From contig NC_054712.1 in assembly GCF_016097555.1 (NCBI RefSeq), positions 46,589,071 to 46,653,070 on the forward strand: a stretch of 64,000 nt of DNA, in the 5' to 3' direction. The notes below the pieces were generated by a model, which worked only from the letters and a program-made list of their open reading frames with translations, had not been told where the DNA came from and ran no database searches. A program made the position numbers and the translations under genes. The DNA is from Gigantopelta aegis. Taxonomy: Eukaryota > Mollusca > Gastropoda > Neomphalida > Peltospiridae. Each line of letters begins with the position of its first letter. The first letter of the stretch is position 1. Of this stretch, positions 18,901 to 53,600 are shown in pieces.

Positions 18901-21900
18901 TGCGGTCCGCGTAAATTTAATTTTGCGTAACCGACACATGAACAGAACGGCGGTTCGCATGAAATATTGTGCCCTGTATAACCTTAAATAAAATGTGTTG
19001 AGTGCTTCATTAAATAAAACATGTTTTTCTTTCCTTCATTATGTTTATCCATCCATCCATCTATTCCAACCATCCATCATTCCATCTATCCCAATCATCC
19101 ATTATTGCATCTATCCATCCACTCATTCTTTGCTAAAATTGTATAGTCACTTCATTATATACCAGTTACATGTAGTATCATAATGTGAGGTCATTTGTAG
19201 ATAATTTATTTACGGGCATTTAAGCTCCTTAATGTTTTATTGTTTATATTACACGAGTTTTATTGCATACCTGTTCTTCAGGTGAAGGCACGAAGTATCC
19301 CGTCCTACAAGAGACTGAAAGACATCCTTGGAAACTCCAGTAAACATTTCTATACGTTCTCCAATGAATATAACCGGTGAGCTGATTTTGTTTCTACTTA
19401 CGTTTGAAAATAAACTGATGGTATTCCAGGTTTGTTATGAAATTACACACAGTAACACTATGCATTGTTGTTTATTTTTTGGATCGATCCTCGTCAGTGG
19501 ACCCATTGGGCTATTTCTCACTCCAGCCAGTGCACCACGACTGGCATATCATAGGCTGTGGTATGTGTTATCCTGTCTGTGGGATGATGCATATAAAAGA
19601 TCCCTTTCTGCTGATCGAAAAGAGTAGCCCATGAAGTGGCACAGTGGGTTTTCTCTCTCAATATCATGTTAACAATACACTATATGTTTTAGTCCGCTAT
19701 ATTATTTTATGTTTAACGACACATGTTTTAGTCCGCTATATTATTTTATGTTTAACGACACATATGTTTTAGTCCACTATTATTTTTTGTTTAGTGACAC
19801 ATATGTTTTAGTACACTATATTATTTTGTGTTTAGTGACATGTATGTTTTAGTACACTATATTATTTTGTGTTTTTAGTAGCAGTACATTATATTATTTT
19901 GTGTTTAGTGACATATACATGTATGTTACCAGTACACTGTATTATTTTGTGTTTAGTGATGCCTGTGTTAACAATACACTATATTATTTTGTGTTTAGTG
20001 ACATGTATTTTAGTATCAGTACATTATATTATTTTGTGTTTAGTGACACCTAATATAGGCTATAGTAACGCCTATGTTAACAGTACACTATATATATTAT
20101 TTTGTGTTTAGTGATACCTGTTAACAGTACCCTGTATTATTTCGTGTTTAGTGATGCCTGTGTTAACAGTACACTATATTATTTTGTGTTTAGGGATGCC
20201 TGTGTTAACAGTACACTATATTATTTTGTGTTTAGTGACACGTATGTGGAGAGGAATCCCGGTGAGTCGTCTAATGACAGAAATGACCGTGCAATTCGCG
20301 AGGCGTGTCGGTGGTACGGGAAACACCTACACGACAACGGTAACACCATGCAGGTGGTGCTACTCACCAACGACGCTGACAACAGAAAGAAGGCTCGCGA
20401 TGAGGGAATCACAGTGTTCACGAGTAATCACACAAAGTTTGCATACATTAACCATGAATATTTGATGGTCATGTATATAAAATAGGCTCATTTATACAAA
20501 GTGGCTATACATTTAGTGTTTGACTAATTAATAAGTTGTTTTAAAAATATTTTTCGAAGAAATGTTCTGAATATTCCAACATTGGCTTAAACTGTATATT
20601 CTTTACAACGCAGGAGTGCAAAGATGGAAAATATTTCACTAGCCAGTCGGACTAGTACCAACTAAAATTTACTAGCCCGTCAGAATTTGTACTAGTCTGC
20701 CAGAACTTGATTGACAAATCATTTCTTTTATATAGATTTACAAATTTCAAGTGACATCCCGCAAGTATTTAACAGCACAATCTATTCAAAACCGGCAACA
20801 TAATTTGAACGTAAACTTTTCATTTCTGTGTAGTATTGACCGTAGAACGACTATTTCCTGAATGTTGTGCTTACGCAATTGATTATTTGGAACTCCGACG
20901 TCATCTATTGTCAATGCTGTACATGTATTATGTATTTGGTCATCATTCTGAACAGTTTGTATGAATGGTTTTTAATTCTGGCTGGCCGATGTACTGTCGC
21001 GGATTCGATGGAAAATTACAGTCAAGTCAGAAAACCCCAGATCGCACGTCAGACTGGTTGTTACATTTTGTAACTCATCTATCAGAATTTGTACTCGCAT
21101 TTGGCAAGCGGGCGAGTACTTTCTGCAGTGTGAACTCCTTGACATCATTATGAAACGCTAAGACCAGACAAAAAAAAAATGTTGCTAAGTTATAGTCCGT
21201 CATTAAGAAATGAAATTATCTGTTTTATATTTTCAATAGTCTATTTCAGTTTTTAAATATATTTTTTTAATGTTGTATTAAAAATCCAGCATTTTGTCTA
21301 AAATGAAAAATGACCATGAGTTAACTCCCTTTCATAATGATGTAATTTTCCCTGTCTGTAGCTGTGTAGTGTATGTATTGAAAATGATCAAGAATGACAT
21401 CACATTTGAATAACATTAAGTCATCCTCGTTTTGAAATAAAGTTTGGAACGATTAGTGTAGATATTTTGTGAGACACTTTGCCGTCCGGGGCGGGATGTA
21501 GCTCAGTGGTACAGCGCTCGCTTGATGTGCAGTCTGTCTGGGATCTGGGTCTATTTCTCGATCCAGGCAGTGCACCACGACTGGTATATTAAAGGCCATG
21601 GTATGTACTACCCTGTCTGTGAGATGGTCCATATAAAAGATCCCTTGCGGCTAATCAAAAAGAGTAGCCTATGAAGTGGCGACACCATATAACCGTAAAT
21701 AAAATGTGTTGAGTGCGTCATTAAATAAAAAAAATTCTTCCTTTCTTTGCAGTCCTGACATGACGGCAAAAGTAGGAATAGCACTTTTTACTTGTTAAAT
21801 TGGGAATGAATGTATGTATGTATTTATGTATGTATACATTTATCTACATACATACATTAAAATAGATTTAAACCATAAATCTCCTAGTTGATAACTTTAT

Positions 21901-22508
21901 TTTAAGGGTAACCTTTAAAAGGATACATCTAGGCATTAACACCCCCTTCCGCCACCGCCAGTTTATGTTTTTTGTGCTTGCAAAAAAAGTATGAACTTCC
22001 CCTTAGAATTACATGTATTATGTGTCCTAATTGTTAAGATTGATAATTACTATCATTATAATTGTGATTGGGTGTGTTTTCTCATTGAAGTTGAGAGGCG
22101 GGACGTAGCCCAGTGGTAAAGCACTCGCTCGATGCGCGGTCGGTCTGGGATCGATCCCCGTCGGTGGGCCCATTGGGCTATTTCTCATTCCAGCCAATGC
22201 ACCACGACTGGTATACCAAAAACCGTGGTATGTACTACCCTGTCTGTGGGATGGTGCATATAAAAGATCCCTTGCTGCTAATCGAAAAGAGTAGCCCATG
22301 ACGTGGTGACAGCGGGTTTCTCCTCTCAATATCTGTGTGGTCCTTAACCATATATCTGATGCCATTTAACCATAAATAAAATGTGTTGAGTGTGTTGTTA
22401 AATAAAACATTTCTTTCTTTCTTTCTGATTGCAGTTGAGGAATATGTGAAGAGTTTGAAGAGTAACCCGGGTCTCATTGACAAGTTAGCCAGATCTGATA
22501 AAGGAATG
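9834..22508 (+). CDS. DIS3: DIS3 exons 1-5: CR3 motif and PIN endonuclease domain
   Basis: Residues 1-215. The N-terminal CR3 cysteines are C31, C36 and C39 (C-x4-C-x2-C). The PIN acidic residues are all present: D68 in LLPDTNVV, E96 at the end of exon 2, D145 in NDRNDRAIR and D174 in LLTNDADNR. They correspond to human D69, E97, D146 and D177. In the known complex this region contacts the exosome barrel and cuts RNA internally. The junction between exons 3 and 4 splits an arginine codon (residue 128), where upstream acceptor copies could add in-frame residues. The exon 5 acceptor lies inside a SINE target duplication. Confidence 0.95.
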
Positions 22509-25500
22509 GTGAGGCTTTTTTTAATAGACTGGGGCGGAATTTAGCTCGGTCACTAGAGTGCTCTTTTGAGGTTCTTGGGTCACATAATAGAACCTCCTTA
22601 CAGGACCCTAATTTTTTTCCCCAGCCCAACCAGTGCTTCACATGTGATATATCAAAGACCACAGAATGTGCTGTCCTGTTTGTGGAAGAGTGCATATAAA
22701 ATATACTTTGCTACAAATGGTAAAAACGTCACAGGATGGAACTTCCTCGGCAAACCCACTGGAGTTTTTTTCCCTATCACAACCAGTGCTCAACAGGTGG
22801 AATATAAAAATCATGTATGTGCTGTCTTGACTGTGAGAAAGTGCATATATAAAAGATCCTTTGCTGCTAATGGAAAAGTGTAACGGGTTTCCTCTGAAGA
22901 CTCAGAATTATCCAATGTTTGACATCCAATAGCCGATGATTATATATCAGTGTGCTCTTGTGGTGTCATTAACAAAACAATCTTTAATTGAGCAGACTGG
23001 CAATAAGTAAAAGTACAATATTGCATTGTTAAATATTTTTTAATTTATTTGTTAACATCTTTATAGATTTATAAAGAATATAGTACAGGTACATCTTGAA
23101 AGATTTATTTTGGCACATTTAGTGCATTTGGCAAACTAGATTATAATCGTAAATTAAATAATGAAAAAACTATAAATGTATACTAAATTATATTTATAAA
23201 TGATATTTTATTTTATAAACACATACGTAATTTATGACTTCATATGCTCCCCTAGTGCTTGTTTCAATGTTTTAAATTCTTTCTACAGTCAATAGAGAGT
23301 CATGGAAAGAACCTGTACCCCGAGCACCTAGCCTTGTCGGAACTTCAGCGGGGAATAAAATCAGGGAAGTATTTACAGGGCTCGTTCATGGCCAGTCGCG
23401 AGAACTACTTGGAAGGAAACGTTAGCGTCCATGACCAGGAAGATATGGTAATCTACATCCTTCTAACTTGCCCAGGATTCCTTTCCTCTCTCATCACTGC
23501 ATATGCATGATTGAACTAGCTCATGTGAGAAAGCCATGTGGAATGTGTGTATCTCCGTTACATTTGATAAACTTACCATTCAACTTGTAAGTTCGGAATC
23601 TTTTGTCGCAATGTTTTTTTCTGTATTCCGCTTTCTGACAAGAAGAGTGGGGACAACAAATTTATTCCTCTATTTTAATACATATTTTATATATGTTTGA
23701 ACACTTGAACAGGGCTGCAGAAATGAAAAATATTTAATGATAAAAACATTATTAAGGATACTTGGTAAGATATTAACATGACATGGCAAACAAACGAAAT
23801 CAAACCCCAAACCTTGATTGACAAATCAATACATGTTGAAATCTTCTGATCAAGACTATGTTATTCACATTTCTTTTATATAGATTTACCAAATTCAAGT
23901 GACATCCTGCAAGTATTTTAAAAGAAAACATTGTGTTTTCCAGGTATTTATTCAAGGGCTGGTTAATCTGAACCGCGTTGTCCAGGGCGATATCGTTGCA
24001 ATTCAGATGTTACCCGAGGATGAGTGGAAATGTCCGTCTTCTCTGGTGCTTGACGATGAAGCCAATAAAACACTGGATGAAGAGGAGTTGAACGAGGTGA
24101 ACATTTCTAAATTGATCAACCTCAGGCTGACAAATGACTTGGCAAACTAGTACAGGACCCGTTGGGCTATTTCTCGTTCCAGCCAGTGCACCATGACTTG
24201 TCATATCAAAGGCTGTGGTGTGTACTACCCTGTCTGTGGGATGGTGCATATAAAAGATCCCTTGCTGATAATCCAAAAGAGTAGCCCATAAATTGGCGAC
24301 AGCGGTTTTCCCCTCTCAATGTTTGTGTGGTCCGTAACCATGTCTGATGCCATACAACCGTAAATAAAATGTGTTGAGTGCATCGTTAAATAAAACATTT
24401 CCTTTAAATTTTGAATTGGTGTATTTGGCGAGTGACAGAGCTAGTTCTGGTAACAGAGTGCACACCTGAGGAGTGTTTCTTGTAGGAGTACCCTTTGTGA
24501 TGAAAGCAGGTTTCTTCTCTTGTACTCTAGACAATATGTTAGATACCAAATACAGTGAAACCCCTCTAAACTGGACGCCCTCGGTTTAAAGAGGGATCCA
24601 GTTTAGAGAGGTTAAGTTCTGTCCTGGTTTTCTAAAAGGGACTCTGTAAAAATGTACGGTTTTGAGGGAATACTGGTTTACAGAGGGTCCGGCCTTGAGA
24701 GGTTTTACTGTAGTTCTATTTTAGACTGCCAAGAATTAAGCACCTAAGAACAAAAAATTTGTGGGTTTTTTTTTTCATTTTCATTCTAATTTTCAAATGT
24801 TTGTGTTGAAAATGTATGTGTCTTCTTTTTCCAGGACACCATACTGAATCCATTTAGAAATTTATTCAGTTTTGTTTTTTATGAAAATGTTTGCAGGAGT
24901 TTGCTCAGTTAAGTTGTGCTGGGTGATTGCCCCTTAAGTCAATTTGGGTTACACACCCCTTACCGCTACCGCCACTTTTCAACCAGTGCTGCTTCGGATC
25001 CCAGTCGAGGCATGGGATTTTTAATCCAGATACCGACTCCAAACCCTGAGTGAGTGCTCCGCAAGGCTCAATGGGTAGGTGTAAACCACTTGCACCGACC
25101 AGTGTTCCATAACTGGTTCAACAAAGGCCATGGTTTGTGCTATCCTGCCTGTGGGAAGTGCAAATAAAAGACCCTTTGCTGCTAATTGGAAAGAGTAGCC
25201 CATGTAGTGGCGACAGCGGGTTTCCTCTCAAAATCTGTGTGGTCCTTAACCATATGTCTGACACCATATAACTGTAAATAAAATGTGTTGAGTGCGTCGT
25301 TAAATAAAACATTTCTTTCTTTCTTTTGATTGCAGGATGAATTGGTCAAAGGTCGGATTCCAAAGGAACTGCGTCAACCGACTGGAAGAATTGTGGGTAT
25401 TATTCAGAGGAAGTGGCGTCAGTATTGTGGAATTCTGAAACCATCCAGTCTAAAAGAGGTGATTATTATAGAGTGACATATTCCACTTTTAAATACACTG

Positions 25501-28500
25501 TGCACTATTTCTGTTATTTGTTGTAAACTCCTGGTGTGATATTCTTCCTACTAAGTTATCTGTTTCAAATATCATTTACAAATACCCCTGTCTAACATCA
25601 TTAAATCATCGTTTTAGGTGAATGTTTTAGTTCATATTGTAGTGTTGGTATAAAGTGCTCCTCGTGGCAGTAACTCAGTCTGTAGAGCACAGCACTCTTA
25701 CTGAGAGTCGGTGGTTCAAATCCGCTCAGTGGAGGGTGATTTTTTTGTTACATATCATAAATGCTGCAAGTTTACAATCTTTTAAATAGTTTTATTTCCT
25801 TTTTTGCCGGGGGGGGGGGGGGGGGGGGGTGTGTGTGTGGAATCATTTTGAAAATAATGTTTTTTAATGCACAAGAGCAAGTTATATTTACTAATATTAA
25901 CTAATCAGCAAAATATAGACATTTTTAAATCTGTTCATGACTGTTTTTTAAGCACTAAATGTTTTGAAATTAATAGCACTATTACATTTCTCTACCTGTC
26001 TTATTTCTCTGTACGTACTTTTCCTTTCTGTAGCTCACTTTTATGTTAATTATCTACTATGATGTTTTATTATTGCTAGTTATTATAAGTACTTAGTCTG
26101 ACATTTTGTCTCAGCTTGTTCGTAAACAAATGTAAGGAAAGGTCCTAATATAGGTTTGTACCCTTTCGACCAATACCACCAGAAAAAACAAACAAATGAA
26201 ATAAATGTTGTTTAAACTAAGTTATATTTATGATTTATAAACTGCATTTATTTAGCATTAATTTTTATCATTAATGTAAACATTTTATAGCAGATTGGTT
26301 GTGTTTTATTTGATGTCGTATAGCAACACCTGTTTGTTTCAGATTTTTTATTTACCATTTCAACCAGTGCTTCATGACTGGTATATCAAAGGCAGTGATA
26401 GTACATAATAAAAGAGTCCTTGCTGCAAATGGAAAAATGTAGGGGGTTTCCTCTAAAACTTTGTGTACAAAAAATTACCAAGTGTTTGACACCCAATAGC
26501 TGATGATCAGTAATTCAATATGCTTTGGTGGGATCATGAATCAAAACAATCTTTAACTTTATACTTACCATTTGGTCAGTCCCAGCCAAAATCAGTAGTA
26601 GTAAATATTTTAGACACTACTTCAGGATAATTGAATGAATGTGGTGTTTTGTAATTTTTAGAGCAGGAGACATTTATTTATACCAGCAGAAAAGCGCATC
26701 CCAAAGATTCGAATAGAGACACGACAAGCTGCAGACTTAGCCGGTCAACGTATTATTGTTGCCATAGACAACTGGTCACGCAACTCCAGATACCCGCAGG
26801 TGAGTTCAACTCCAGATACCCACAGGTGAGTTCAACTCCAGATACCCACAGGTGAGTTCAACTCCAGATACCCGCAGGTGAGTTCAACTCCAGTTACCCA
26901 CAGGTGAGCTCAACTCCAGACACCCACAGGTGAGTTCAACTCCAGACACCCACAGGTGAGTTCAACTCCAGACACCCACAGGTGAGTCCAACTCCAGTTA
27001 CCCACAGGTGAGTTCAACTCCAGACACCCACAGGTGAGTTCAACTCCAGATACCCACAGGTGAGTTGAACACCAGATACCCACAGGTGAGTTGAACACCA
27101 GATACCCACTGGTCAGTTCAACTCCAGATATCCACAGGTGAGTTGAACACCAGATACCCACAGGTGAGTTGAACACCAGATACCCTCAGGTGAGTTCAAC
27201 TCCAGATACCCACAGGTGAGTTCAACTCCAGATACCCACAGGTGAGTTCAACTCCAGATACCCACAGGTGAGTTCAACTCCAGATACCCACAGGTGAGTA
27301 CAACTCCAGATACCCACTGGTGACTTCAACTCCAGATACCCACAGGTGAGTTGAACTCCAGATATCCATGGGTGAGTTCAACTCCAGATACCCATAGGTA
27401 AGTTGAACTTCAGGTATTTACAGGTTTGTAAACTTCAGGTATCCAAAAGAAAATTTATTTAGAGTTGAACTGAGAAGAAGTTAGAATCAATACAGGTCAC
27501 GGTGGTTGACATATTTAGGGGTCAAAATTAGTTGAAATTTCTGCTTGACATTTGATCTGGCAAGCTACCATTTCTGTCGTCCTGAATCAATACATGTCAG
27601 ACCAAACATGATTATATATTAAAATATCTCCTCGCCCATGGTGAGTGACTGGCAAAAAACCTGTCGGGATGTGAGTATTTCGACCACTGATATTTTATGT
27701 AAATCTATGAGGCTTGTTTTGTATAATTGCCAGGGCCACTTTGTGAAGAAGCTGGGATCGGTTGGTGATAAGGACACGGAGAACGAGGTTCTACTACTGG
27801 AACACGATGTTCCGCATTCAGGTTTCTCCGAGACTGTTCTCAGCTGTCTTCCCAAGATGCCATGGGTCATAACTGATGAGGTAAATACAGAAGATATTGA
27901 TTAGGCTGGCAATAGACAATATAGTCATTAGGCTGTTAAAATCTGTTCTAAAACTGTCGTGTTCGAAACCCTAGTGGTATATGGACACGTTAAACCAGAT
28001 ACTAAGTTAAGTCAAGTCTAAAGCTGTTTAAAATTCTATATCTGCGCAAGACAGTTGATGTGGCTAAACCCATTTCATGACCATAAATAATGACAATGAA
28101 AACTTCAAATGGAATCGCTGTACAAATGCAGTTCATTTGAAATTCAAGATTTACTTTTTCACTATTTAGTTCAAGTTGCTAGATAAGCATGTATCAGACA
28201 CCTAAGTCGCCATGTGTTAAAATGTGCAGTGCCATCATTAGACAAATAATAATATATTTTTCCCTACCTTTGTGAAAGGTGTGCAAATGCATGCGTGTAA
28301 AAAAATATTTTGTCATATAATGCTCACATATTTTACTAACAGTAAAAGATATAATAGGAAGGGGGAGAAAACATTGCACCTGTAATGAATGTCTCAATCT
28401 CCGTCTTTCTGTGTTTACGTTCAGGATATGAAACGTCGTCAGGACTTGCGACACATCACAGTATGCAGTGTGGACCCGCCCGGCTGCACGGATATTGACG

Positions 28501-31500
28501 ACGCATTACACTGTCGAGAATTAGATAATGGCAATCTTGAGGTTTGCACAGTTAACATTAGTTTAAAGTATTATGTTCAGATGGTTGAAAAGAAGCTAAG
28601 AGTCAGTTCTACGCCGGTTAACCAAGTTTAAAACTTGATGTTTTTTTAGAATAATTACATGAAGAGAAAGATAGAAAGTCTTCAACTGCATGTAGCTTAG
28701 TGTTAGAGTCCTCGTCTGAGGTGCATCCAAACAGAGCACCACAGCTTGTAAATCAAAGGTTGTGGTATGTACTGCCCTGTATATGAATTTGAATATAAAA
28801 GATTCTTGCTGTTTTTCATCAGGAGTAGTCTTTGTGGAAGCAGCAGGTGTCCTCTTTCTCAAACAAGTGTCAACATAGCTACAGTGAAACCTTTCAAAAC
28901 CGGACCCTCTGTAAACCAGAATTCCCGGTGTCCGGTTTAGAGGGGTTTTGCTGTATTTGTTAGACATAAATAACCGTAGTTTACAACATATGAGTTGTTA
29001 TTAAACAGGTGTTCATATAACTGCTATTTATTGACTGTTAAGCAGTTGACTAAATTCTTTACTTTGTTTATCTTGGACAAAAGTCCTAGTTCCAGTCACC
29101 ACTGGTGGCCATGTTACTCTGATGATCAAGTTATCTTTATTGTAATATTGTTCTAGCTATCTTGATGTATAACATGTATATTTGTTAAATGTAGGGAGAG
29201 GCCTTAATATAGGCACTTGGCTGTTGGCCAATCCCAAATTTGATCTGCAAATAAATATTGTTTAAACCAAGTAAAAATTTATAATGAGAGTTGTCTTTCT
29301 GCAGGTTGGTGTTCACATAGCCGACGTGTCTCACTTCATCCGCCCGGGAACGGCTATAGACAAGGAGGCTGCGAGTCGCGGGACCACAGTGTACCTCACG
29401 GACATGGTAATAAACTGATAGAGCTTATTACTGTAATTCTGGAAATGAATACAAACAGGACATTATTGCGAAAATTGCATCTAGATGTAGCTCTCAATAA
29501 TATATTGTGAATATTAAGTTGTACGGTGTGGTACATTCAACAGCACTTATTTCAAACCATGCAGTGGCATAGCGTGGGTTGCCAGCGCCCCCTAACCAGT
29601 GGACCTAGTCCCTTCCACCAGTCCAGAATTTTGCACCCAGGGCAACAACCCCGGTGGCCTGCCAATGCTATGCCACTGATACCATGAACATATTAAATTT
29701 GACTTGCACCACTCTGGTCCATCTACAGACTTCACTAGATACTTTACTTTATCTACAGACTTCAGAAGTTAATAGCTGTATTATTGTTATTCATTTTATC
29801 ATTTGGCTAAATATTTTTTCCTAAAATTATCCATTTGTATATTCATTATCAGGTTCTGAAGTTACATCTTACATTGATGCATATAAAAAATGTCTGTAAC
29901 GTTTGGAATGTAACAAGTAACATGGTCATATATATATGTTATACAGATGACATCCCATTTAATTTCATGTAACAGTTCTCTTCTCTTTTTTTTCTTTATT
30001 ATTTTACTGATCTAAGATTTTAACAGCTAGCTCTAAATGAAATCTTTGAGGGTTTTTTCAGAGAATTGACATGGTGCCAGACTTGCTGAGCTCGAACCTG
30101 TGTTCACTGCGGAGTAATGTGGATAGGTAACAATAATTTGCTGACATTTTGCTTTTATCTCTTTGTCACTGATACGGGTTTTTTCATTAATTCAAAATTC
30201 ACAAATAACATAGGAAAAATACTATAATAATTATACAATTAAAAAAATTTAAACTGATACAAACTTTTATTATTACCGTACCTCAAATGTTTTTGCCAAA
30301 TTAAAATAAAAATTTGCCAATTGTTTTTAAAATTTGCAGTTGCCAAATTTGGCACATGGCTGAACTAGCCCTGCTTTAAGCAGATGTCATAATGTTTCTA
30401 AAAATTTTAATAGAATTTCACAACTATGTAAAATAGAATTTCACAACTATATGTATATGAAACATGCTTTAAAATTAACTCCTCACACAATGTGTTTTGT
30501 AACCACGGGTGAGTTCTGTTTTGTAACCATGGGTGATTTCTGTTTTGTAACCACAGGTCATTTCTGTTTTGTAACCACGAGTCATTTCTGTTTTAGGCTT
30601 GCCTTCACAGTAATCTGGGAAATGACAAAGGAAGCTGAAATTTTGAAGTCTACATTTACAAAGAGTGTTATTTGTTCAAAGGTTCGTTATGGATGGACTG
30701 TTTGAGAGAGAAATTGTAGTACAATTTTTTAGTGGCAGAAAGTTGCTTTGTTGTAAGATGCTTATTTGCAGTGGAATTTGTCACATGATCAGGCCTGACC
30801 CATCTGCCACGTTCCAACCTGTTGTATATTAAAAGCTGTTGTATATATTGTCCTGTCTGTAGGAAAGTACATTCTATTCAGTAGTAGATGTAGTACGAGT
30901 GGGTTACATTTCACAATCATTTTATATTATAGTCATGGGTTGGAAATTTGTTGAAGTGTCATTAAACTGACATTCCTTACCTTCAGACATTCCATGCTTG
31001 GAAGAGTAGTCAAGTGTTATAAGATAAAGCTGAAGTTTATGTGTGCTGTGTTATATTAATTTTATATTTAACACTTGTAATGATTTACTTGTCCAGGCAT
31101 CGCTGACATACGCAGAGGCCCAGATGAGGATCGATGATCCCAAGTCGAATGACGACATCACTAAAAGTCTGAGGTGGCTTAACAAACTGGCAAAAATTCT
31201 CAAGAAAAAACGAATTGATAATGGGTAGGCAGATTCTTTTTAAAATTATTTTTTAATTGAAATTTACATGTTTGATTGTATAATGTCCAGATGTAGAAAT
31301 ATTGTCATTAATATTGATTAGTATATAGAACTTTGTTCAGTATTGAATTTAGGAAAATATTTAGATTTGAATTTTATGAATAATTGAACTGAATATTTTA
31401 ATTTTATGAATGCTTGAATCATATGATTACTTGAATTAAGTATGCATTAGACAAGTTGCATATTCATTTCATATATATTATACATAATTTGGAGCTATGG

Positions 31501-34500
31501 TAATAATCTTTATCAGTATTGAATAATGAAGAGGAATGTACTATGTACTGTGAGTTAGATTTGTCCTTCTATGCTATACATATGTTCATCTGATGTCAAG
31601 GTGTTTTTTTTTACCAACAGTAAACATTAATCATGTATTTTATTCTTCAGAGCTTTATGTCTGGCATCTTCTGAAGTTCGTTTCCATGTGGACAGTGAGA
31701 CACACGACCCAATTGACGTACAGACAAAGGAAATCAGGTTTGTTCTCTTACTGAATCATAATTTTTAATGCCTAGAACTTACACAGTTAATCTAGTAAGA
31801 GTATTACCCTTATTTCCTACATTGTTCAGTGCAATAAAGGAACAGAGCTGAAATCTGGTTCATTAAATGGATATTGTAAGGTGCAATATTTCACACAAAC
31901 CAAAAATCTGTTCGCTTCTCAGATGTGGAACTTTAAATTACACAAACTGCCACTTGGTTGCACAGTGAATCATTATACATTCTGAAATTGAAAATAACTT
32001 ATTTTAATATATGATTGAGGTAACTGATTAGGTTGTGCAAATATAAATGATGAAACCATGCAAGTATAAATCACGAGAATTGACTTTTGGTAACTTATGA
32101 TTATTACATATTGTCCCCATTTTTCAGATTCTTCATAGATTCCATTCTAAACTTTAAATAATCTACTTTAATAGCTATGATTTTGAAATATTACCCCTTG
32201 GTATTACTGAGTACACATACTGTAATTATTTCTTTGGTTTTTCTCCACTGAATCTGTTCAAGACATTGTAAAATCTTCTACTTTCATACCTCAGAGACAC
32301 AAACTCGATGGTGGAGGAATTCATGTTGCTTGCTAATATTTCTGTTGCTAAGAAGACGTTGGAGGAATTTCCCGACTGTGCCTGTCTGAGACGGCATCCC
32401 TCTCCACCCCCTTCGAATTTCGAACCTCTCCTTAAGGCAGCCAGTTCCAAGGTATGTGATTTACTGCAGTGGATTAAAAACACTGTCAGTTTGGGAGGGG
32501 GATATTCAGCAGATACTGTATATAGAAATGTCAAGTGGAGAGAGGAGCTATAGAATGTGTTATGTGTGTATTGAAAGTGCATGTTAGAAAGCATTATGGT
32601 GGAGGAGGATGGGTGGGTACAAAACTTCATGATTTTGCATTATGTAATTGGTGACCTCTTAAAAAAATATTTACATTATAGGTTTTGTTCGGATTCAATT
32701 TATTTTTATTTTGCCACATTGCCATGATTGTATACAATTATGGTTGAATCATTCTGCCGTGGGTTCATACCGTATGCTCAGCTATCTGTCCAGGGGCTAC
32801 CGGTAAGGGTTAGTTGTAAATGAGAGAGAAGTCCGTGTAGTGGTCATTAACCTTCCAATTGAACCACTGGAACTCACTCAGGTGGGAAGTGGTACCAGGA
32901 TGTGAACTCAGTACCTACCAGTCTTACAATATATGGCTTAAAAACTACACCATTAACGCTGGTGGTTGTCATGGTGATTGAGGCCGATTTTCAGTGACAA
33001 TTACTTCCCTTTAGTGTTCATAGTTTTATAATTATTCTTCGTCATATTTGGGGATGGTGCAAATAAAAGATCAGTTACTACAAGCAACTACACCTCTTGT
33101 TAACTGACATGAGCTTCCAGATCAGGATGCGTGTCCCTGGATATAAACACAAATTAATTTCTAGCATACAAACAAGCATTGTTTTTACCTCATACTGGAA
33201 ACCTAGTGTCAAATTAACGAAGACTTTTTTTCTCTTACATGTGTGTAACTTCATATTAATTATATCTGTCTTTAAGGAAAAAGTCTTCATAAATATTCTT
33301 CTTGAGTATTCTGTTAATTAACCAGTCTGCTGGGGTGTCCTTAAAAATGTATTCTTTATTTTTAATTTCCAATGATTAAAACATGTGCTGGGGTGTTATT
33401 AAACGAGCATTCCTTACCTTTTTTGTGTCATTTATTTATAATATTTGCCAAAGTGCTGTGATTACCAGGCCTGGACCTGGGGAGGGGTGGTCTTTAAACC
33501 TGCCAAAAAATATGGTGGCCCAAAAAATAATAAAGGATATTAGCAAATTATAGTAAGCGAATCACAAACCATGAGCAAGATTTTGACATGGAATAAATCA
33601 ATGCAATACAAATATTAATAGTGGCTTATATGTTATAGCTCTAAAGAAGATCAACCCAATAATATTATTTGGCCAACTAACACCATTATTTTATATTTAA
33701 GTCACCCAAACAGGACATTGGTCGCATTTGGCGACCTGGCCACAGGCCGTTTCGAGGACTGTTGAATATAAACCTAACAAAGCCTTTTGTCCACATTTTC
33801 CCTGGACACCCATATGAATAGCCAAATATTGCCTACATATTGTGATTACCATATGCTAGACGTCTAACAGCTTGTGTTCTCATGTGTTGTGCCAGGGTTT
33901 GCACATTGACGTGTCGTGTGGGAAGCGCCTGGCAGACAGTCTGGATGAGGCGGTGTTTGCTGACAACCCATACTTCAATACGATGTTGCGCATCATGACG
34001 ACGCGCTGCATGATGCAGGCCGTCTACTTCAGCAGCGGGACCCTGCCCCCCGACGAATTCAACCACTACGGGCTGGCCGCGCCCATCTACACACACTTCA
34101 CATCGCCCATCAGGAGGTGAGTCTACAGACACAGTTTGGTTTATTAAGTACTAGATATTACACACACTTCACATCGCCCACCAGGAGACGAGTCTACAGA
34201 CACAGTTTGGTTTATTAAGTACTAGATATTACACATACTTCACATCGCCCACCAGGAGGTGAGTCTACAGACACAGTTTGGTTTGTTAAGTACTAGATAT
34301 TACACACACTTCACCTCGCCCACCAGGAGGTGAGTCTACAGACACAGTTTGGTTTATTAAGTACTAGATATTACACACACTTCACATCGCCCACCAGGAG
34401 GCGAGTCTACAGACACAGTTTGGTTTATTAAGTACTAGATATTACACATACTTCACATCGCCCACCAGGAGGTGAGTCTACAGACACAGTTTGGTTTATT

Positions 34501-37500
34501 AAGTACTAGATATTACACACACTTCACCTCGCCCACCAGGAGGTGAGTCTACAGACACAGTTTGGTTTATTAAGTACTAGATATTACACACACTTCACAT
34601 CGCCCATCAGGAGGTGAGTCTACAGATAGAGTTTGGTTTATTAAGTACTAGATATTACACACACTTTACCTCTCCCACCAGGAGGTGAGTCTACAGACAC
34701 AGTTTGTTTTATTAAGTACTAGATATTACACACACTTCACCTCGCCCAACAGGAGGTGAGTTTACAGACACAGTTTGGTTTATTAAGTACTAGATATTAC
34801 ACACACTTCACGTTGCCCACCAGGAGGTGAGTCTACAGACACAGTTTGGTTTATTAAGTACTAGATATTACACACACTTCACGTTGCCCATCAGGAGGTG
34901 AGTCTTTGTCATAATTAAGATTTCATTCCGTTTTCAACAGTTCTATGCAATTTCCTTTAAAGCATGATAATTAAATTTCTGTTAGATTCATTACAATATA
35001 ACATCATCTCATTGGTCCAGCCGTAACAACGGAAGTTTGTTCAATTCTCGATGAATGAAAAAATTAAGTCTTCAGGGAACGTCATATCTGATGACGTTAT
35101 TTTATATGGGCAAGTTGTCTTATTATTAAGCGTTATTGTTTATGGACCAAAAATATTTCAAAATAAAGTATGAAGTTTTAGTGTTATTATTACCAAGTAT
35201 GATTCAAATTTAATTATAAGTATTGTCTGTTATTTCTTTTATTTTCATCTGGGTATGAACAAAAAAAAAATCATCTGCAAACTTATTTGAGAATGGGTTT
35301 TTTCTTCATAGATAGATGAATGTAAAAGAAGTAACAGACAATCCTTAATTAAACATTGTTATTTAATGAAAGTTTAAGATGTTTTAAAGGATATGGTCAC
35401 CATCAATAATCCTGATTAAACAAACTTTGAAGACAATGATGATTTAGATCACTCATCTTTGATCGGAAACATATGGAAACATTGTAATTTAAAAATGCAT
35501 ATTTCACTTTGGAAACGTCGTCTGTGGAGATATTTTCTGATTGTAAATCCGAATTCAAAAGACTTAAAAAATACAACTAATTGGTTTTATTTCTTGTTAC
35601 TACCAAAGTCTTAAAAAATAACAATTGATTGGTTATATGTTATTGTTTAGATATTCTGACATCATCGTACATCGTCTGCTGGCCGTGTGTATAGGAGCCG
35701 ACGCATCGTATCCTGATCTCCTTGACAAACATAAAACACAGGTATAGTGAATATTATATAGCCTAGTTTATATTAGTAAACATAAAACACAGGTATAGTA
35801 AATATTATATAGCCTAGTTTATATTAGTAAACATAAAACACAGGTAATGTGTATATTACATAGAATGTATTTATATCAATAAACATAAAACTCTGGTAAA
35901 GTAAATATTATATAGTCTACATTTATATCAGTAAACATAAAACACAGGTAAATTAAATATGGAGTATGTCTTTTCACAAAGTCTACCAACACACAACAAT
36001 ATGGTAACCAAACTACCCCCACCCCTTTTTTTTTGCTTTTCGTTTATTGGTGTGGGTTTTTTGAAGGGTGTGGTGCCGAGCGGCCGCCCTTCTTTAATTT
36101 TCACCCAGCGAGAACACTAATATATATATATATATAAATATATCATTTTACGGTGTCATTAAGCAGTTATTCCCTTCTTATCTGTGTAAACCATGTGTCA
36201 CAATTACCATACACATGTATGCTAGACATATAGTAACCACTGATTAAACAATGTGCTGAGGTGTCATTAAACTAACATTCCCTTCCCTTTATAGTTCAAG
36301 TATTATAATTATCATATTTTAAACATACCGTAGCCACTGATTAAACAATGTGCTGAGGTGTCATTAAACTAACATTCCCTTCTCTTTATAGTTCAAGTAT
36401 TATAATTATCATATTTTAGACATACCGTAGCCACTGATCAAACAATGTGCTGAGGTGTCATTGAACTAACATTCCCTTCTCTTTATAGTTCAAGTATTAT
36501 AATTATCATATTTTAGACATACAGTAGCCACTGATTAAACAATGTGCTGAGGTGTCATTGAACTAACATTCGCTTCTCTTTATAGTTCAAGTATTATAAT
36601 TATCATATTTTAGACATACAGTAGCCACTGATCAAACAATGTGCTGAGGTGTCAAAGAACTAACATTCGCTTCCCTTTATAGTTCAAGTATTATAATTAT
36701 CATATTTTAGACATACAGTAGCCACTGATCAAACAATGTGCTGAGGTGTCAAAGAACTAACATTCGCTACCCTTTATAGTTCAAGTATTATAATTATCAT
36801 ATTTTAGACATACCGTAGCCACTGATCAAACAATGTGCTGAGGTGTCATTGAACTAACATTCGCTTCCCTTTATAGTTCAAGTATTATAATTATCATATT
36901 TTAGACATACCGTAGCCACTGATCAAACAATGTGCTGAGGTGTCATTGAACTAACATTAGTTTTCTTTGTTTTGTAGTCGGTGTGTAACAACCTTAATTA
37001 TCGACACAAAATGGCGCAGTATGCGGGGAGAGCTTCTGTTAACCTTCACACTCAGGTGAGTATATATACACTGTTTAACAACAAGACCTGTCTCAGTGGT
37101 AAACAGAGGTTTTGCTATCCTGTCCCAAGATTCAGTTCAATGAGAATTACCAACTTTCATGGTCTCCCAGTGGCGGATCTAGAAAATAATAATAGGGGGT
37201 GGCTGGATTGGGATGGAGTGAACTGGTGGGGGCTGAACCATGGTGAAGGTTCCGGGGACAAAGCCCCCTGAAGTTTCAGCATTCTGGACATTTTAGAGCC
37301 TTATTTCACTGATTTCTGAGGATCTAATTCCTAATTAATAATTTCGTAAAGTTGATACATTTTTTGCCGTTTTCCCGATTCACACCAAAATATATAGAAA
37401 ACGATTAAATTTTGTCTTTACCGATGCAAGCCATTATCAGTTCAATTGTACACCTGATTGACAACCAGGCGATGCATATTATTTTAGCCAATGGAATGGG

Positions 37501-47618: not shown

Positions 47619-50600
47619 CTGAAAGACAAACAGAAAAGATGTCTTCATCTAAACAAAAAGCAAAGGATTCATGCTGAAAATATGCTAAGAATGGGGCAAG
47701 ATATTAATTAATTATGGACGATTTTTGTACAAAACAACCGCACATAGGTTTGTATTATTATTTATTTCCGGGTGAGAGGGAGCAGTGGAAGTATAATACA
47801 GTAGAATCTCATTGGCTCGAACACTGTCGGTGCATCAAAATCTGTTCGACCCATCGGGTAGTTCGAACCATGCATTCGGCCACGGTCGGGTGCTTCTGTA
47901 ACACAAAAAGCAATCAGACAACTTCGCATATTTCCATAAAACCGGCTTGGGTAAGATGATCCAATTGACTCATGAGTAACGAAGTCGCCGTCAAATGTTG
48001 GATAAACAAATACGATTGACAAAATTTATATAATGGAGAATATATAAAACTCCATTCATAGTCGTGCCATCATTAGAGCTGGAAACAAACTTGGCGTGAC
48101 GGAAACAATTGGCTATTGTTTTGTGTGTCACCTGCATCAAATACATTGCATCCAGTACCGTAATTAGCATGTCTATGTTTCTGTCTGTTGTATGGAGCTG
48201 CTTCATGATAGCAAGTTGTTTGTAGGGGATTTTCAGGTTGTTTATCATGCCTTGGTCCATGGGCTGTGCTTGACTGGTTGTGTTAGGTGCCAAAAAGATC
48301 AGCTCAATAACTTTCAGACGTTTTTTCTACCGTTAGGCTGCATCCAGGTCGATGAAAAATTCCTACATAAATTTTTATATATATATATATTCTTTGCATA
48401 GACTTAGCTGTTCGAGCTAAATATATTTAATTTTACAGTTCGGACCAATAAATCGGTTCGAGAGAAAGCTTCTGTTCAACCCTAGGGGTATTCGACCAAT
48501 CAGCACCAAAATAAAAGGGTTTAATAGAGAGAAAAATCGGGACTTTGTTCTTGGTTTCGAGAATACCGGTAGGTTCGACCATTGGGCGTTCGAGCCAATG
48601 GAATTCTACTGTACTTATATACTATGTTTCATTTATGGAATGTAATAAGAGGATATGTCATGAGTATTTTTTAATATGGGAAGTATTAACTGATACTCTG
48701 TTATTCTGTATTTGTCAAGTCTCTGGCAAGACAAAAACAGATGACCAAGCCAATGGCAATATTTCTCAAAGTGAAAATACAATTGACAAATTCTATTTAT
48801 TTTACATAATGGTCAAATGTTTTTGTTTTGTTCTGTTTTTTCAGTGGAAACGAAGGAGGGAGAGTCAAAAGCAAAGAGAGACTGGAGGGGAAAAGGTGCA
48901 AGAGTCAACTAAAAGGAGGAGATTCAACAGAAAGGAGGATAATTAACAAAAAGGAGGGGAATCAACAGAAAGGAGTGTGATTCAACATAGAGGGGTGAAT
49001 CAACATAGTGGAGGGTGAATCAACATAGTGGAGGGTGAATCAACAGAAAGAAGGGTGAATCAACAGAAAAGAGGAGGATTCAATAGAAAGGCAGGGAGTG
49101 TTGGGTAAAAAAAGGAGACAATTGCCAGTAAACTAAAGCACACCTTCTCGTGAGGTCGTCTTCCTTGGCGTGTTCTGGTGTCGTGGACTGCCGGATGGAG
49201 GTGGTCGCAGGGTTCAACTCTTTGAGCTGGTCCATGACCTCGAGGCCATTCTCCTCAGCCACCTGCTGAATCAGCGACTCCACCTGGTCCTGGGGCGTCG
49301 ACAGTGTCGTCGCGGTGCCCATCGCACTCTCTAGAGTCTAAACAAACATAGCATGATTTTAACACTCCACATCACATTGGCCAGTCTAAACAAATGTAAC
49401 ATGATTTTAACACTCCATGTCACACTGGCCACAGTCTGTGCTGATATAACATCATATATTTTATAGTTTTTTTCTAGAAATTTGGCAAGACATGGTAGAT
49501 TAAACACTTTGGAGGCATTTTCAGGACACTTTTGTTTTCCATTAAAGAAAAAAAAAAATTAAAGAAAAATAAATGTAATTAATGTGCTTGCTTTAATAAA
49601 AGAATGGTAAAATATATATATATATTTTATTATGGTAATTAATAATAATTTTTTTTAGTGTTTTATAAAAGCAATTTTACAATTAATTATTGAAAATGGC
49701 TCGTTTAATCTCGGGGCAGCATGGTGCTGATTAAGGCAATATGGCCCTATATTACTGAGGCATGGTGCTGCACAAGCTAGGAAAAACACTATTTTAAAGC
49801 TTTAATCTTAACTGTCCAGTGCGAAATAAACATAACTGTAACACATTCAAATTACACAAAATATTTTAGAACAATCGTAGTTCCTTGCAAACATGTAAAT
49901 TCTTTCAAATCTGCATTTATTGCACAACAAAAAGCATATATACTGATGGAAAGAAATAAGGAAACCCATCAAATTGTAGACCAAATTTAATTCACAACTA
50001 GCGAAGTAATGTCTGTATTTCATACCAAGTTGTAATGTGGGATTGAATGTCTGTAGTGTTGAATGTGCTGCCTATATGTTCCCAGTCAACTTCTGACAAT
50101 ATGAACTGATTTTTGATGCAGTCATTATTTCTTGTTGCTATCTGTGTGATCCTTTATTTCTTTCCATCAGTATATATAAAGTCAAAAAAGTGCTGTCGCT
50201 GATGCTCTCAATGATAGCAATTGCTGTCAGTGCCATTGTTATGTTTGAGCATGTGACTGTAGAATTAATCACCCTCATTGTACTTGGGGGCATTTTCCTG
50301 TCCCAGCCAATGCTCCTCTGTTCAATAAAAATGTTGTTTTCTTAAATATTTTTGTCTTAAAAACCATCCACTTTAAGAGACACAATAAATTTTTAAAAAG
50401 ATAAAACTCAACATTCCGTCTGTACTGCATCCTGCAGTAGCTTAATATTAAATGTATAAAACATGTACAACAGTAGGTACATATCACAAACAATATTAAA
50501 ACTTACAGATGTTCTAACATCAAGATCTTCAAACTGTCTTTCAAACTTTTCCATAATCTGGTCAACCTGTCAAAAAAAAAAACAATAACTGGGTGAGTAA

Positions 50601-53600
50601 AAAAAAAAAAAAAAAAAAAAAAAATAACTGGGTGAGTAAAAAAAAAAAGAATAACATCTTCTCACACTTAAAATTATAAAGAGCATGTGATATTGTGTAT
50701 TATTCTTTTTTTTTCAAATGTTCAGAGAGATGGGTACTAAATCTTTCAAAAGAAATGGCATCAAACACTTTACAAATAATTAGTTAAAAATAAAAATATA
50801 AATATTAACATACTGTAATAACATCAGACAATTTATAAATAACAATATTTGTTGTCTTGTTATATTTCATTGAACAATTTTTTATTTATGTTTATCTTGA
50901 TTTTAACATCCACTCTGCACATCAAGTTTATATTTTCACATACTGATTTTTAGGTTCTTACCTTTTGTAGATCCATGGATGCCATGGCCTTGTCCAAAGC
51001 CTTTGTGACACCAGCAATATTCTTTGTCACCTGTAAAATAGGAATATATTTTGCTGCAGACATGTGTATATATAGATTATATATATATATATTAATAACA
51101 TATTGACTATTAAGTAAAATTATTAAACCAAATTAAAAGCTAATCTGTTCTCTCTTTGGAAACGACCATTAGCTACATACTTTACAGGTGTTATAACTGA
51201 TGTACATGTATGCATGTCGCAAAAACATATGAATTGAGCCATACACCTTTTAGGGTCATGGCAGTCTAAATTTTACCTATAAACTGTGTAGGTATTTTAA
51301 CTAATGTATGTCACACATTCTAAAACAATCACATACTGAATAACATAGCCAGTGTACCAAATTAAACTCATACCCCTTTCATGGTCATCGCGGTCTGCAC
51401 TTTGGACTGGACAGCGTCCACTCTGGCAGCGAATCTGAGATAATTCAAACCTTCGTTCTTCTTCCTGATCGCATTCTCTGCATAGATCTGAGCTCCTTCT
51501 ATATTCTTCTGAGCGATGGCCTACAACAGAGCAATGTCTAATTTTACCTCAATCTAAGAGACAGGTTAAAAAAAAGACACCAAAAACACAAGATTTACAA
51601 ACTAATGTGACACAATTAACTCCATTCTGGGGTGGGCTGCATGTCAGTGGTAGTATGTTCACCTGAGGCAAGTCATTAACCTTCTGACTACTGCAGGCGA
51701 GATATCTCGCTCGACATCATGCCAGTCGACATACTGTACACTGTATACAGTGCATATATTCCCCAATTCATATTTTCTGCCATTTTGAACATGACACTCA
51801 CCTGAAACATTTTTTCTTAACAGGAAACAGTTTATTTTACAGCATGGTAGCTTTTGTTTCTTGTTTTTCAATTGAAAATACATTGGAATTTTGAGTTCAA
51901 AAAGTGGGTTTTTTGGCAAGTATTTTTGCTTGACAACAATGGCAGCACGTCGCAGTCATTTTCAGGGATCAATAGCTGATTGTGACAGCTAATTTGATAA
52001 TATATTTGATCATTTTACCAACAACGAAAATCACCAAATATTGGGATACGAATCGTAGTTAGTTTAAAAAAAAGATACTGGACATCTGACCACAAATGCC
52101 CCCGTAAGCAAACGCGACTTACTTTTTTTTTGCAAAATTTTAATCACCATTAACTGATCTAAAATACCATAAAAATTAACAAAAACCCACGAAAATAATA
52201 CTTCCTAATTCATATATGAACTTTATTTTATGTATTTATAAAACATTTAAGTGAATATATGTGAGTAAAATATATAAAGTTGTACCCACTCGACGTGGTT
52301 TTTGTCAAAAATTAATCCAGTAGTCTAAAGGTTAAATGCAAAAGTGAAAACCTGATCACTGTGATACATGTATATACATGTAGATTATACTTGGAGTCCA
52401 TTTCATGACATTTACATGACCTTTATAATAAACATTGACAGCATTTGTTGCTCATCGGGCAAACCTTACAAACATACGTGTGCTCAAACTTAACTGTTAA
52501 ATTTACTGTATTTTTCTTTTTAGAGGTAATTTCCCCCCCCCCCCCCCCCACTTTATGAACAGTCAACAGCATTCAATGACCTATTATATAGTTGGTACTC
52601 ACTTAATACTGGTAATTTACATGTATTTTCGATCATGTCCGATGGCGCCAAGATTCAGATACTAATAACGGTGCAGTTACTGTTTTAATATTTACTTTTA
52701 ATCTATTTTCAGTTGTCAAAGTATATTTTATTTTTAACAATAGGAAAAAAAACAACGTTGAACATTTTTTCAATATAGTCCACAGCAAAACAAATGTCGC
52801 AGAGAATGAAAACCTCTGCAGCAGTCTCCACAGCATTCCCCAATTGCCGCGTGCAATTGCAGGGGTTGCATGTAGCTCTAAGATCACTTTGTATCATAAA
52901 ACTGTGTTAGGGTGTAAAACAAAAAAGAGAGTAGTGTAATAAATGGATGGTGTATTATGTTTTCTTTTCTGTCTGCTATTTTTACCTTTTTCACTTTGTT
53001 GAGCTGAGCCTTTTGCTCTTTCTCTGCCTTCGCTGCCATCCGCTCCAGCTGCTTCATCGTGAACTGTCAAACAAATCTCACAGAATTAATACACAGCAGT
53101 ACACAGTTACACTATTAATGTGTGAATGATTGCAAACATGTATGTGGCAGTAATGAGTTTCGGTCTTTGTGGTCAGCAAAATCAAGGAAAGCTGAAGGTG
53201 GAAGATACATGCATGTAATTCTCCTGAAATGATGCTTGATGAACAATCACATGAAGTTTCAAATAAAATGTGTTTATCTGTTGTAAGGTGAGCAATATGC
53301 CATTATATTTGCCACTCTCTTAAAACATTTCAGGTACGAGTGGTGGGGAGTTGTGTGATTATTTGCCTTAAAATTGTGTGAAAACTCTACAATATGTGTA
53401 ATTATCAAATACAAAACAGATAAAATAGAAACTAATAATATACTTTTGCACAATTTACAAAATGTACATATAGCCTTAATGTGGAACCAATATTTTGAAT
53501 GTATTTTTAGGGCAGCAAAAGAGAAACAAATAGTGGGTTATTTGTTTTCAGGTTACGAAAGTTTACTAACAAGTTTAACCAATTAATTAATCAACCTGTG

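Follow-up and report, generated by a model that had tools for sequence, protein, structure and literature searches.

Tandem arrays at exon-intron junctions of several genes in the gastropod Gigantopelta aegis

Main finding

In the deep-sea gastropod Gigantopelta aegis, tandem arrays cross or adjoin splice junctions in several genes on several contigs, and are not confined to one gene. We consider these arrays very probably minisatellites of the "mirage" type, that is, junction duplications that were tolerated as the exon-proximal splice site stayed intact, and that then expanded. The new elements are the occurrence of mirage-type arrays in a mollusc, their presence on several large contigs, copy numbers of up to 25, and a tally of their positions against chance. 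The window analyzed here is a stretch of 64,000 nucleotides of contig NC_054712.1 (positions 46,589,071 to 46,653,070), in which tandem repeats were called by TRF, with the main counts made at scores of at least 100. Our own 22-exon model of DIS3 was identical to the annotated G. aegis DIS3 protein at 924/924 residues with 0 gaps, and in this protein-level comparison the annotated product agreed, without gaps, with use of the exon-proximal sites from exon 1 to exon 22.

Arrays at DIS3 junctions

Six arrays were found in DIS3, at exons 4, 9, 14, 18, 19, and 20. The features concerned, all on the plus strand, are as follows.

19677..20238, plus strand: exon 4 array, units of about 38-45 bp, ending across the exon 4 acceptor
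20236..20423, plus strand: exon 4 (gene model, protein identity)
26662..26799, plus strand: exon 9, its final 19 nt forming the start of the array
26781..27413, plus strand: exon 9 array, 26-bp units across the donor, 24 decoy donors
27884..27935, plus strand: duplication near exon 10, 27 bp x1.9, 3 bp past the donor (TRF score of 69, hence outside the statistics at scores of at least 100)
30493..30594, plus strand: exon 14 array, 24 bp x4.2, abutting the acceptor
33896..34116, plus strand: exon 18 (gene model, protein identity)
34088..34905, plus strand: exon 18 array, 71 bp x11.5, across the donor
35727..35960, plus strand: exon 19 array, 51 bp x4.5, across the donor (5′ site), 15 exon nt per unit
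36223..36958, plus strand: exon 20 array, 97 bp x7.6, ending 19 bp before the acceptor
36978..37055, plus strand: exon 20 (gene model, protein identity)

TRF and direct reading both confirmed the arrays that an earlier note had placed at DIS3 exons 4, 9, 14, and 18, at the 5′ site of exon 19, before exon 20, and before the OXA1L exon at 63533. Its description of the arrays as lying exactly on the junctions was imprecise. At exons 4, 9, 18, and 19, the exon end and the splice site lie inside the repeat unit: units start 19, 29, and 15 nt inside exons 9, 18, and 19, respectively, and the exon 4 array crosses the acceptor by 3 nt according to TRF or by about 12 nt as judged by eye. At exons 14 and 20 and in OXA1L, the array merely lies beside the 3′ splice site without taking in the full junction, ending 2, 19, and 6 bp before the exon. 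The same note had described arrays on both sides of exon 19; this held for the 5′ site, whereas on the 3′-site side, upstream of the exon, a degenerate two-copy repeat was visible by eye that TRF did not list at a score of 40.

The exon 18 unit consists of 29 exon nt and 42 intron nt. That of exon 14 extends over the pyrimidine tract and leaves out the AG. Each of the 7 units of the exon 20 array carries its own ..ctttatag; the likeness of this 3′-site stretch to the real site was not significant, as 227/500 shuffles scored as high, and the unit was therefore rejected as a recognizable copy of the acceptor.

Where the junction lies inside the unit, the copies form series of decoy splice sites. 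Exon 4 is preceded by 9 decoy acceptors (..gtttag|(T/G)GA), and use of those at -42 and -84 nt would keep the frame, stop-free over the translated stretch. The decoy donors of exon 9 retain GT in 24/24 cases and GTRAGT in 20/24, and those of exon 18 retain GT in 9/11, with its loss in the other two. At exons 9, 18, and 19, read-through beyond the donor meets a stop within 9 codons.

Other arrays in the window

Further arrays were located in OXA1L and in a gene named CHMP1 here from its peptide.

49335..49431, minus strand: CHMP1 duplication, 48 bp x2, across (3 nt) the acceptor of exon 49144-49337
50572..50648, minus strand: A/T-rich CHMP1 repeat, 39 bp x2, beside the acceptor of exon 50507-50566 (low complexity, excluded from the statistics)
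48905..49096, minus strand: CHMP1 intron array off the junction, 47 bp from the donor
63287..63526, plus strand: OXA1L array, about 37 bp x6.6, ending 6 bp before the exon at 63533, with ..gtgtgttag|CC in two units
62010..62098, plus strand: OXA1L intron duplication off the junction, 44 bp x2, identical copies, nearest junction 439 bp away

The earlier note had missed the CHMP1 duplication at 49335..49431. Repeat units of the window arrays differ in length (about 40, 26, 24, 71, 51, 97, and 37 bp), and their consensus sequences are unlike by eye, in agreement with the claim that the units are unrelated. That they represent independent events sharing one geometry was likewise borne out by units that look unrelated, by occurrence on both strands, and by the several genes involved. 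Derivation of the arrays from copies of one mobile element was rejected, given that the consensus units look unrelated by eye.

Arrays outside the window

Outside the window, junction-proximal arrays (at most 10 bp away) were found three times in TTC5, three times at myosin exons, and twice at one SLC25A42-like exon; confinement to a single gene was thus contradicted both here and by the CHMP1 repeats. In TTC5 (minus strand), arrays of 89 bp x20, 45 bp x11, and 76 bp x2 cross three donors. Our TTC5 model aligned with abalone TTC5 over 306/306 residues without gaps; the G. aegis TTC5 protein was not found among the 45 relatives listed. An 80-bp array crosses the donor of one myosin exon (L033, contig C8), and arrays lie 5 and 10 bp before the acceptors of two others (L037 on C8 and L047 on C4). 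At the SLC25A42-like exon (L026, contig C5), the acceptor is crossed by a 76-bp array, and an 87-bp x1.9 array lies 10 bp past the donor. In an SLC25A42-like last exon (L026:2341-2446), a 54-bp x1.9 repeat crosses the stop codon with the one-sided geometry seen at junctions. Donor arrays were also present at contig C1 exons in L050 and L051, which are examples and not part of a sample, having been found through a search for duplicated donors.

Within 10 bp of a junction, none of 3 arrays was found in a DIS3L-like gene, none of 2 in the rest of OXA1L, and none of 2 in L011; in L017, where four exons were recognized by eye, no array reached a score of 100.

Counts against chance

In the window, 7 of the 11 intron arrays with scores of at least 100 are no more than 10 bp from a junction. 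The number expected under uniform placement is 0.94 when any intron is allowed (P = 7.8e-6), 1.58 within the array's own intron (P = 1.0e-4), and 1.81 when an exon overlap of one period is permitted (P = 2.7e-4). For junction-spanning arrays alone the count was 5/11 (P = 3.3e-3 for the own intron, or 7.3e-3 with the one-period overlap). These in-window P values are flattered, because the window was reported for showing the pattern. Counted per junction, the window gave no excess: 7/60 junctions have a tandem duplication no more than 10 bp away, against 7.5 expected, an expectation that reflects the 12.5% of intron bases near a tandem duplication, a background itself made up mostly of these arrays. 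The earlier statement that chance placement is unlikely therefore held when arrays were counted (0.94-1.81 expected) but not when junctions were.

In a sample beyond the window, we observed a moderate excess near junctions: 8/24 arrays lie within 10 bp, against 3.0 expected (P = 0.0044). Junction-spanning arrays alone did not reach significance there (5/24, 2.5 expected, P = 0.095). Pooling both sets gave 15/35 arrays at most 10 bp from a junction, with 4.8 expected (P = 7.7e-6).

The sample has the following scope. The myosin part comprises 20 stretches (21 matches) from the upper part of at least 80 matches listed, on contigs C1-C15, with long open frames omitted. Twenty random regions were scanned for exons by codon usage, and exons were placed in five (L011, L012, L017, L022, and L026). 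For L007, L012, and the myosin stretches, we fixed the exon boundaries by inspection or with simple splice-site scoring. The count of 35 leaves out low-complexity arrays (near-periodic at 1-6 bp), arrays scoring below 100, those of the 15 random regions where no exon was placed, and arrays outside definable introns (five in L012, two in L022, and four in L026, including the stop-codon repeat). It also leaves out the array at 71685-72045 (flank coordinates), past the last TTC5 exon, other flank arrays without a defined intron, and the coding 84-bp repeat of L024, and it treats the two adjoining arrays of L047 as one.

Donor motifs within arrays

Donor consensus was also retained in arrays outside the window, with GTGAGT in 7/7 copies at the L033 myosin exon and GTAAGT in 19/20 copies of the 89-bp TTC5 array, both counts including the real site and only regular-expression matches. 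Across array units of the window and its right flank, GTRAGT occurred in 5/21, against 1.3 for permuted motifs. No such enrichment was seen in 64 random-sample arrays taken without annotation (2 arrays, against 5.0 for permuted motifs), and a strict donor expression run over the arrays of 27 loci matched only the exon 9 array of the window. The CAGGTGAGT donor motif repeated at a spacing of 17-39 bp gave 722 matches in the genome, against 114 for the reversed pattern; these are matches and not separate loci, and 76 of the 100 places listed belong to one 3-kb array. Of seven places read for the duplicated-donor pattern, two lay on an evident coding exon as judged by eye.

Proposed origin and alternatives

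Array anatomy, the exon sequence within units, and the decoys that keep the consensus are all read directly from the genome. As an explanation we favor junction duplications that are tolerated and then expand. The seed would be a short duplication that spans or adjoins an exon-intron junction; minisatellites are abundant in this genome (approximately 15% of a random genome sample). As the exon would remain complete and its splice site functional in the exon-proximal copy, the gene product would not change, and surplus copies would be treated as intron. The copies would then multiply on the intron side only, probably by slippage or unequal exchange, and the spliceosome would presumably ignore the decoys in vivo. 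Tolerance through the exon-proximal copy had been suggested before, and it agrees with the DIS3 protein match, the ungapped TTC5 alignment with abalone, and the early stops past the donors; tolerance alone, however, predicts no excess at junctions.

A neutral account would have minisatellites arise everywhere, with exonic ones removed and junction-crossing ones surviving through the intact exon-side copy, so that junctions are one edge of constraint among others and the window is a lucky cluster. We place this somewhat short of an even chance. Arrays are indeed frequent in this genome (3.3 per 10 kb of random sample vs 2.0 in the window). Outside the window, spanning arrays are only twofold above expectation, and within it junctions are covered to the same degree as introns in general. 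The stop-codon repeat in L026, with its one-sided geometry at an edge of constraint unrelated to splicing, points the same way and weakly favors the edge of constrained sequence over splicing itself. The excess outside the window and in all 35 arrays argues against the neutral account, as does the surplus of spaced CAGGTGAGT matches over the reversed pattern, in which one array accounts for most places listed.

Junctions might instead be mutational hotspots, at which R-loops, stalled polymerase, breaks, or the step in composition between exon and intron lead to template switching that seeds duplications; we regard this as possible but doubtful. It would fit the excess above uniform placement within the array's own intron, and the involvement of donor and acceptor sides, both strands, and unrelated units. 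As the units hold both exon and intron sequence, spliced RNA and lariats are excluded as template, and DNA or unspliced RNA would be possible. The stop-codon repeat speaks against such a hotspot, having the same geometry with no splice site, and DIS3, CHMP1, OXA1L, and TTC5 are neighbors, so a regional effect is possible.

Selection for duplicated splice sites, for example for added U1 or U2AF binding and sturdier splicing, appears improbable: decoy donors mostly keep the consensus in exons 9 and 18, L033, and TTC5, but the copies are alike, so that their conservation requires no selection, GT has been lost in two exon 18 decoys, and extra donors, if used, would be costly through frameshifts or stops. 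An assembly artefact of a long-read genome is very improbable, since units, copy numbers, and divergences differ by locus, copies vary by point changes, flanks are ordinary exons, and a published G. aegis host genome, possibly another assembly, is described as built from PacBio Sequel and Illumina reads (PMC7895826), even though one amphioxus globin mirage was apparently misassembled in a genome draft, according to the account available (PMC3087553).

Beyond the arrays counted here, tolerated junction duplication may extend to a wider pattern in which junctions are the preferred birthplace of minisatellites throughout the G. aegis genome, consensus-keeping decoy arrays that arose independently of the amphioxus mirages occupy a few per cent of exon ends, amounting to thousands of sites, and the exon-proximal site is routinely picked among up to 25 near-equal ones; we put this forward tentatively, as somewhat more probably wrong than right. 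Dozens of near-identical donors in series constitute a natural test of exon-end choice. The arrays also offer material from which new introns and, as at exon 4, in-frame exon extensions could arise. Should the junction excess persist under full annotation, it would link gene structure with the mutagenesis that produces duplications.

Comparison with known systems

The closest precedent is the amphioxus "mirages", described in the available part of the report for Adh3, the globins BflGb6 and BflGb9, TnC, and, in imperfect form, PGBD5, with RT-PCR suggesting regular splicing (PMC3087553). The earlier note made no mention of them. A unit that crosses the exon-intron boundary and includes exon sequence, as in mirages, was found at DIS3 exons 4, 9, 18, and 19 and at CHMP1 exon 49144-49337, but not at DIS3 exons 14 and 20 or in OXA1L, where the array stops 6 bp short. 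As in amphioxus, both donors (exons 9, 18, and 19) and acceptors (exon 4 and CHMP1) are affected, and AG or GT persists in many but not all copies (GT in every exon 9 decoy, but not in every one of exon 18). In contrast to the amphioxus cases, the G. aegis arrays occur in several genes and contigs, reach up to 25 copies, and include acceptor-side arrays that only abut the junction; they are known from a single genome assembly, whereas RT-PCR is available for amphioxus, and length instability between haplotypes or in somatic tissue is a feature of mirages. A curiosity of a few amphioxus genes is thereby extended to a mollusc, in which it can be counted.

Minisatellites near alternative exons in C. 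elegans (PMC4039745) were set aside as a different phenomenon, as far as the accessible text describes them, and the available part of a report on an abalone intron minisatellite (PMC6905558) describes no tie to a junction. Human segmental duplications contain internal tandem repeats at exon-intron boundaries; according to the sections available, these are variable and, in young paralogs, alter exons or give rise to new introns (PMC2812944), whereas the DIS3 protein and exon ends of G. aegis look unchanged. In the Rogers model of intron gain by tandem genomic duplication (cited in PMC3087553; PMC4974935), as outlined in those excerpts, stretches with splice signals are duplicated as in the G. 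aegis arrays, but the new intron forms inside coding sequence, whereas the arrays described here lie at mapped exon edges.

Tandem arrays at splice junctions

The window corresponded to G000:C14:46589071-46653070 in an assembly of 1.149 Gb and 5216 contigs, and the DIS3 model built from it (22 exons, 924 residues) matched the 949-residue exosome complex exonuclease RRP44-like of Gigantopelta aegis at 924/924 residues without a gap. Its other features are:

48633-53063, minus strand: CHMP1, a name that we take to fit its peptides
From 60272, plus strand: OXA1L
16155-17027, within DIS3 intron 2: transposase remnant, presumably Tc1/mariner-like

That arrays lie at junctions is firmly established: TRF listed six arrays in DIS3 and one in OXA1L that the earlier note had described, with details in need of correction. 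Aligned on the splice site, the DIS3 arrays of exons 9, 18 and 19 comprise 25 copies of CAACTCCAGATACCC(A/G)CAG followed by intronic gtgagtt at exon 9, with point changes among them and the exon end itself as the first copy; 12 copies of a 71-bp unit, of which 29 nt are exon, at exon 18; and five copies with 15 exon nt each at exon 19. This last array, said to flank both sides of its exon, was found at the 5′ site; the acceptor side holds a degenerate two-copy repeat absent from TRF. At exon 4, the real acceptor was preceded by nine decoy acceptors, that is, extra copies within the array on the intron side. The exon 14 array stopped 2 bp short of its exon and has a unit without AG, and that of exon 20 stopped 19 bp short. 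Each of the 7 units of the latter contains an acceptor-like ctttatag, and the likeness of this unit to the real 3′ site was not above that of shuffles (227/500). Overlooked previously were a 48-bp duplication crossing a CHMP1 acceptor and small repeats next to two further sites, the donor of DIS3 exon 10 and a second acceptor in CHMP1.

Chance expectation in the window

Among 11 intron arrays with a score of at least 100, a period of at least 12 and no low complexity, 7 lay within 10 bp of a junction (0, 0, 2, 0, 0, 0 and 6 bp), the remaining four being 19, 47, 439 and 1843 bp away. Uniform placement in which arrays could reach 35 bp into an exon predicted 0.94 such arrays in any intron (P 7.8e-6) and 1.58 in the array's own intron (P 1.0e-4), and 1.81 were expected with full-period overlap (P 2.7e-4). 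For spanning arrays only, whose unit holds exon end and splice site (5/11), P was 4.3e-4, 3.3e-3 and 7.3e-3, respectively. Counted per junction, the window showed no excess, with 7/60 junctions near a duplication against 7.5 expected from intron coverage; we count this result as contrary even though its background is made mostly of these same arrays.

Junction arrays outside the window

Since the window had been chosen for its pattern, we examined other regions. The 20 kb to its right contain the remainder of OXA1L, where neither of two arrays was near a junction, and minus-strand TTC5, whose best relative was abalone TTC5 (306/306 residues aligned, ungapped); no G. aegis TTC5 protein was among the 45 relatives listed. 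Three TTC5 donors were crossed by arrays (89 bp x20, 45 bp x11 and 76 bp x2.1), and two more arrays scoring at least 100 lay elsewhere in its introns.

In a random sample of twenty 10-kb regions, exons could be placed in five. An SLC25A42-like exon (L026) had its acceptor crossed by a 76-bp array and an 87-bp array starting 10 bp past its donor, with another array of that intron away from junctions. Arrays in L011, L012 and L022 were away from placeable exons, and four SARM1-like exons (L017) had no array scoring at least 100. Separately, a 54-bp x1.9 repeat (L026:2341-2446) crosses the stop codon of the last SLC25A42-like exon and leaves its coding side in one copy; this non-splice boundary shows the geometry seen at the junctions. 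An 84-bp repeat array lies within coding-like sequence at L024:6779-10000; an open frame through its first part would encode a cysteine-rich repeat of 28 residues.

Among at least 80 myosin-head matches, we examined 20 stretches with 21 matches. One donor was crossed by an 80-bp array (L033, C8), acceptors were abutted at 5 bp (L037, C8) and 10 bp (L047, C4), and four other arrays were 135-280 bp away. At DIS3L-like exons (L007), 0/3 arrays were near a junction. An apparently intronless DIS3-type coding stretch on a 66-kb contig (L006, C1234:9500-19400), parts of which share 28-73% identity with DIS3 proteins of animals, possibly derives from a contaminant or associated eukaryote.

Outside the window, 8/24 arrays lay within 10 bp of a junction (2.96 expected, P 0.0044), or 5/24 for spanning arrays only (2.54 expected, P 0.095), in a small set partly of neighbouring genes with exon edges placed by eye. 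Pooled with the window, the count was 15/35 (4.77 expected, P 7.7e-6). An excess of arrays at junctions is likely, and the pattern is not confined to one gene, since it also occurs in CHMP1 and OXA1L and, outside the window, at TTC5, SLC25A42-like and myosin exons.

Donor motif across the genome

Exact pairs of CAGGTGAGT 8 to 30 bases apart occurred 722 times in the genome (348 + 374), against 114 (12 + 102) for the backward-read control. Among 100 places listed, 76 were one 3-kb array on C1 and the others fell in six more, on C1 and C2; of seven listed places read by eye, 2 were on evident coding exons (L050, L051) and 5 were not. The L051 array (L051:1-440) lies upstream of an amine-oxidase-like exon, and each unit holds a donor (CGGATG followed by gtaagt) and an acceptor (tttccag followed by GTTTGTCTG), as if a short intron plus both flanks had been repeated. 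GTRAGT was present in 5/21 arrays of the window and flank (permuted-motif mean 1.3) and in 2/64 arrays of the random sample, where permuted motifs averaged 5.0 and there was no enrichment; minisatellites made up ~15% of that sample, or 19% counting one satellite region. Given the motif-pair and GTRAGT counts, donor-bearing arrays occur in many places, yet are a small part of random-sample minisatellites.

Proposed origin and splice-site choice

A duplication crossing a donor would leave the order whole exon, donor, some intron, exon-end repeat and second donor. Splicing from the first of the two donors would yield the old mRNA, with acceptor duplication as the mirror case. Junction-crossing duplications would then be no more harmful than intron duplications, and later growth would add copies to the intron and leave the exon single. 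Because the units hold exon and intron together, we infer that spliced RNA and lariats are excluded as template.

The proposal that the exon-proximal copy is used agrees, at the sequence level, with the annotated DIS3 protein and homology, which support it. Read-through past the real donors of DIS3 exons 9, 18 and 19 hits a stop within 9 codons, and splicing at the closest decoy of exon 9, 26 nt downstream, would cause a frameshift. For exon 4, the acceptors 42 and 84 nt upstream would preserve the reading frame. GT was kept in 24/24 decoys at exon 9 and 9/11 at exon 18. Among regex-matched copies, real site included, GTGAGT was found in 7/7 in the L033 array; of the TTC5 arrays, the 89-bp one had GTAAGT in 19/20 and the 45-bp one GTRAGT in 8/8. 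Judged by their motifs, decoys mostly appear to be good sites still.

Two tails (TAAATAAAACATTTCTTTCTTTC..), presumably of SINEs, at 22412-22434 and 25314-25335 form the pyrimidine tracts of the acceptors of DIS3 exons 5 and 8, stopping 22-23 bp short of them, and are both followed by TGATTGCAG; they are 2/8 plus-strand tails found in the window.

Comparison with known arrays

Among the open-licence papers listed for tandem repeats, minisatellites and mirages at splice sites and exon–intron boundaries, we saw no earlier report of mollusc junction arrays. The G. aegis junction arrays are real, occur in more than one gene and place a known kind of array in a phylum lacking an earlier report in that search: the mirages of amphioxus are minisatellites crossing exon–intron boundaries, to whose cases PMC3902484 adds TnC and PGBD5.
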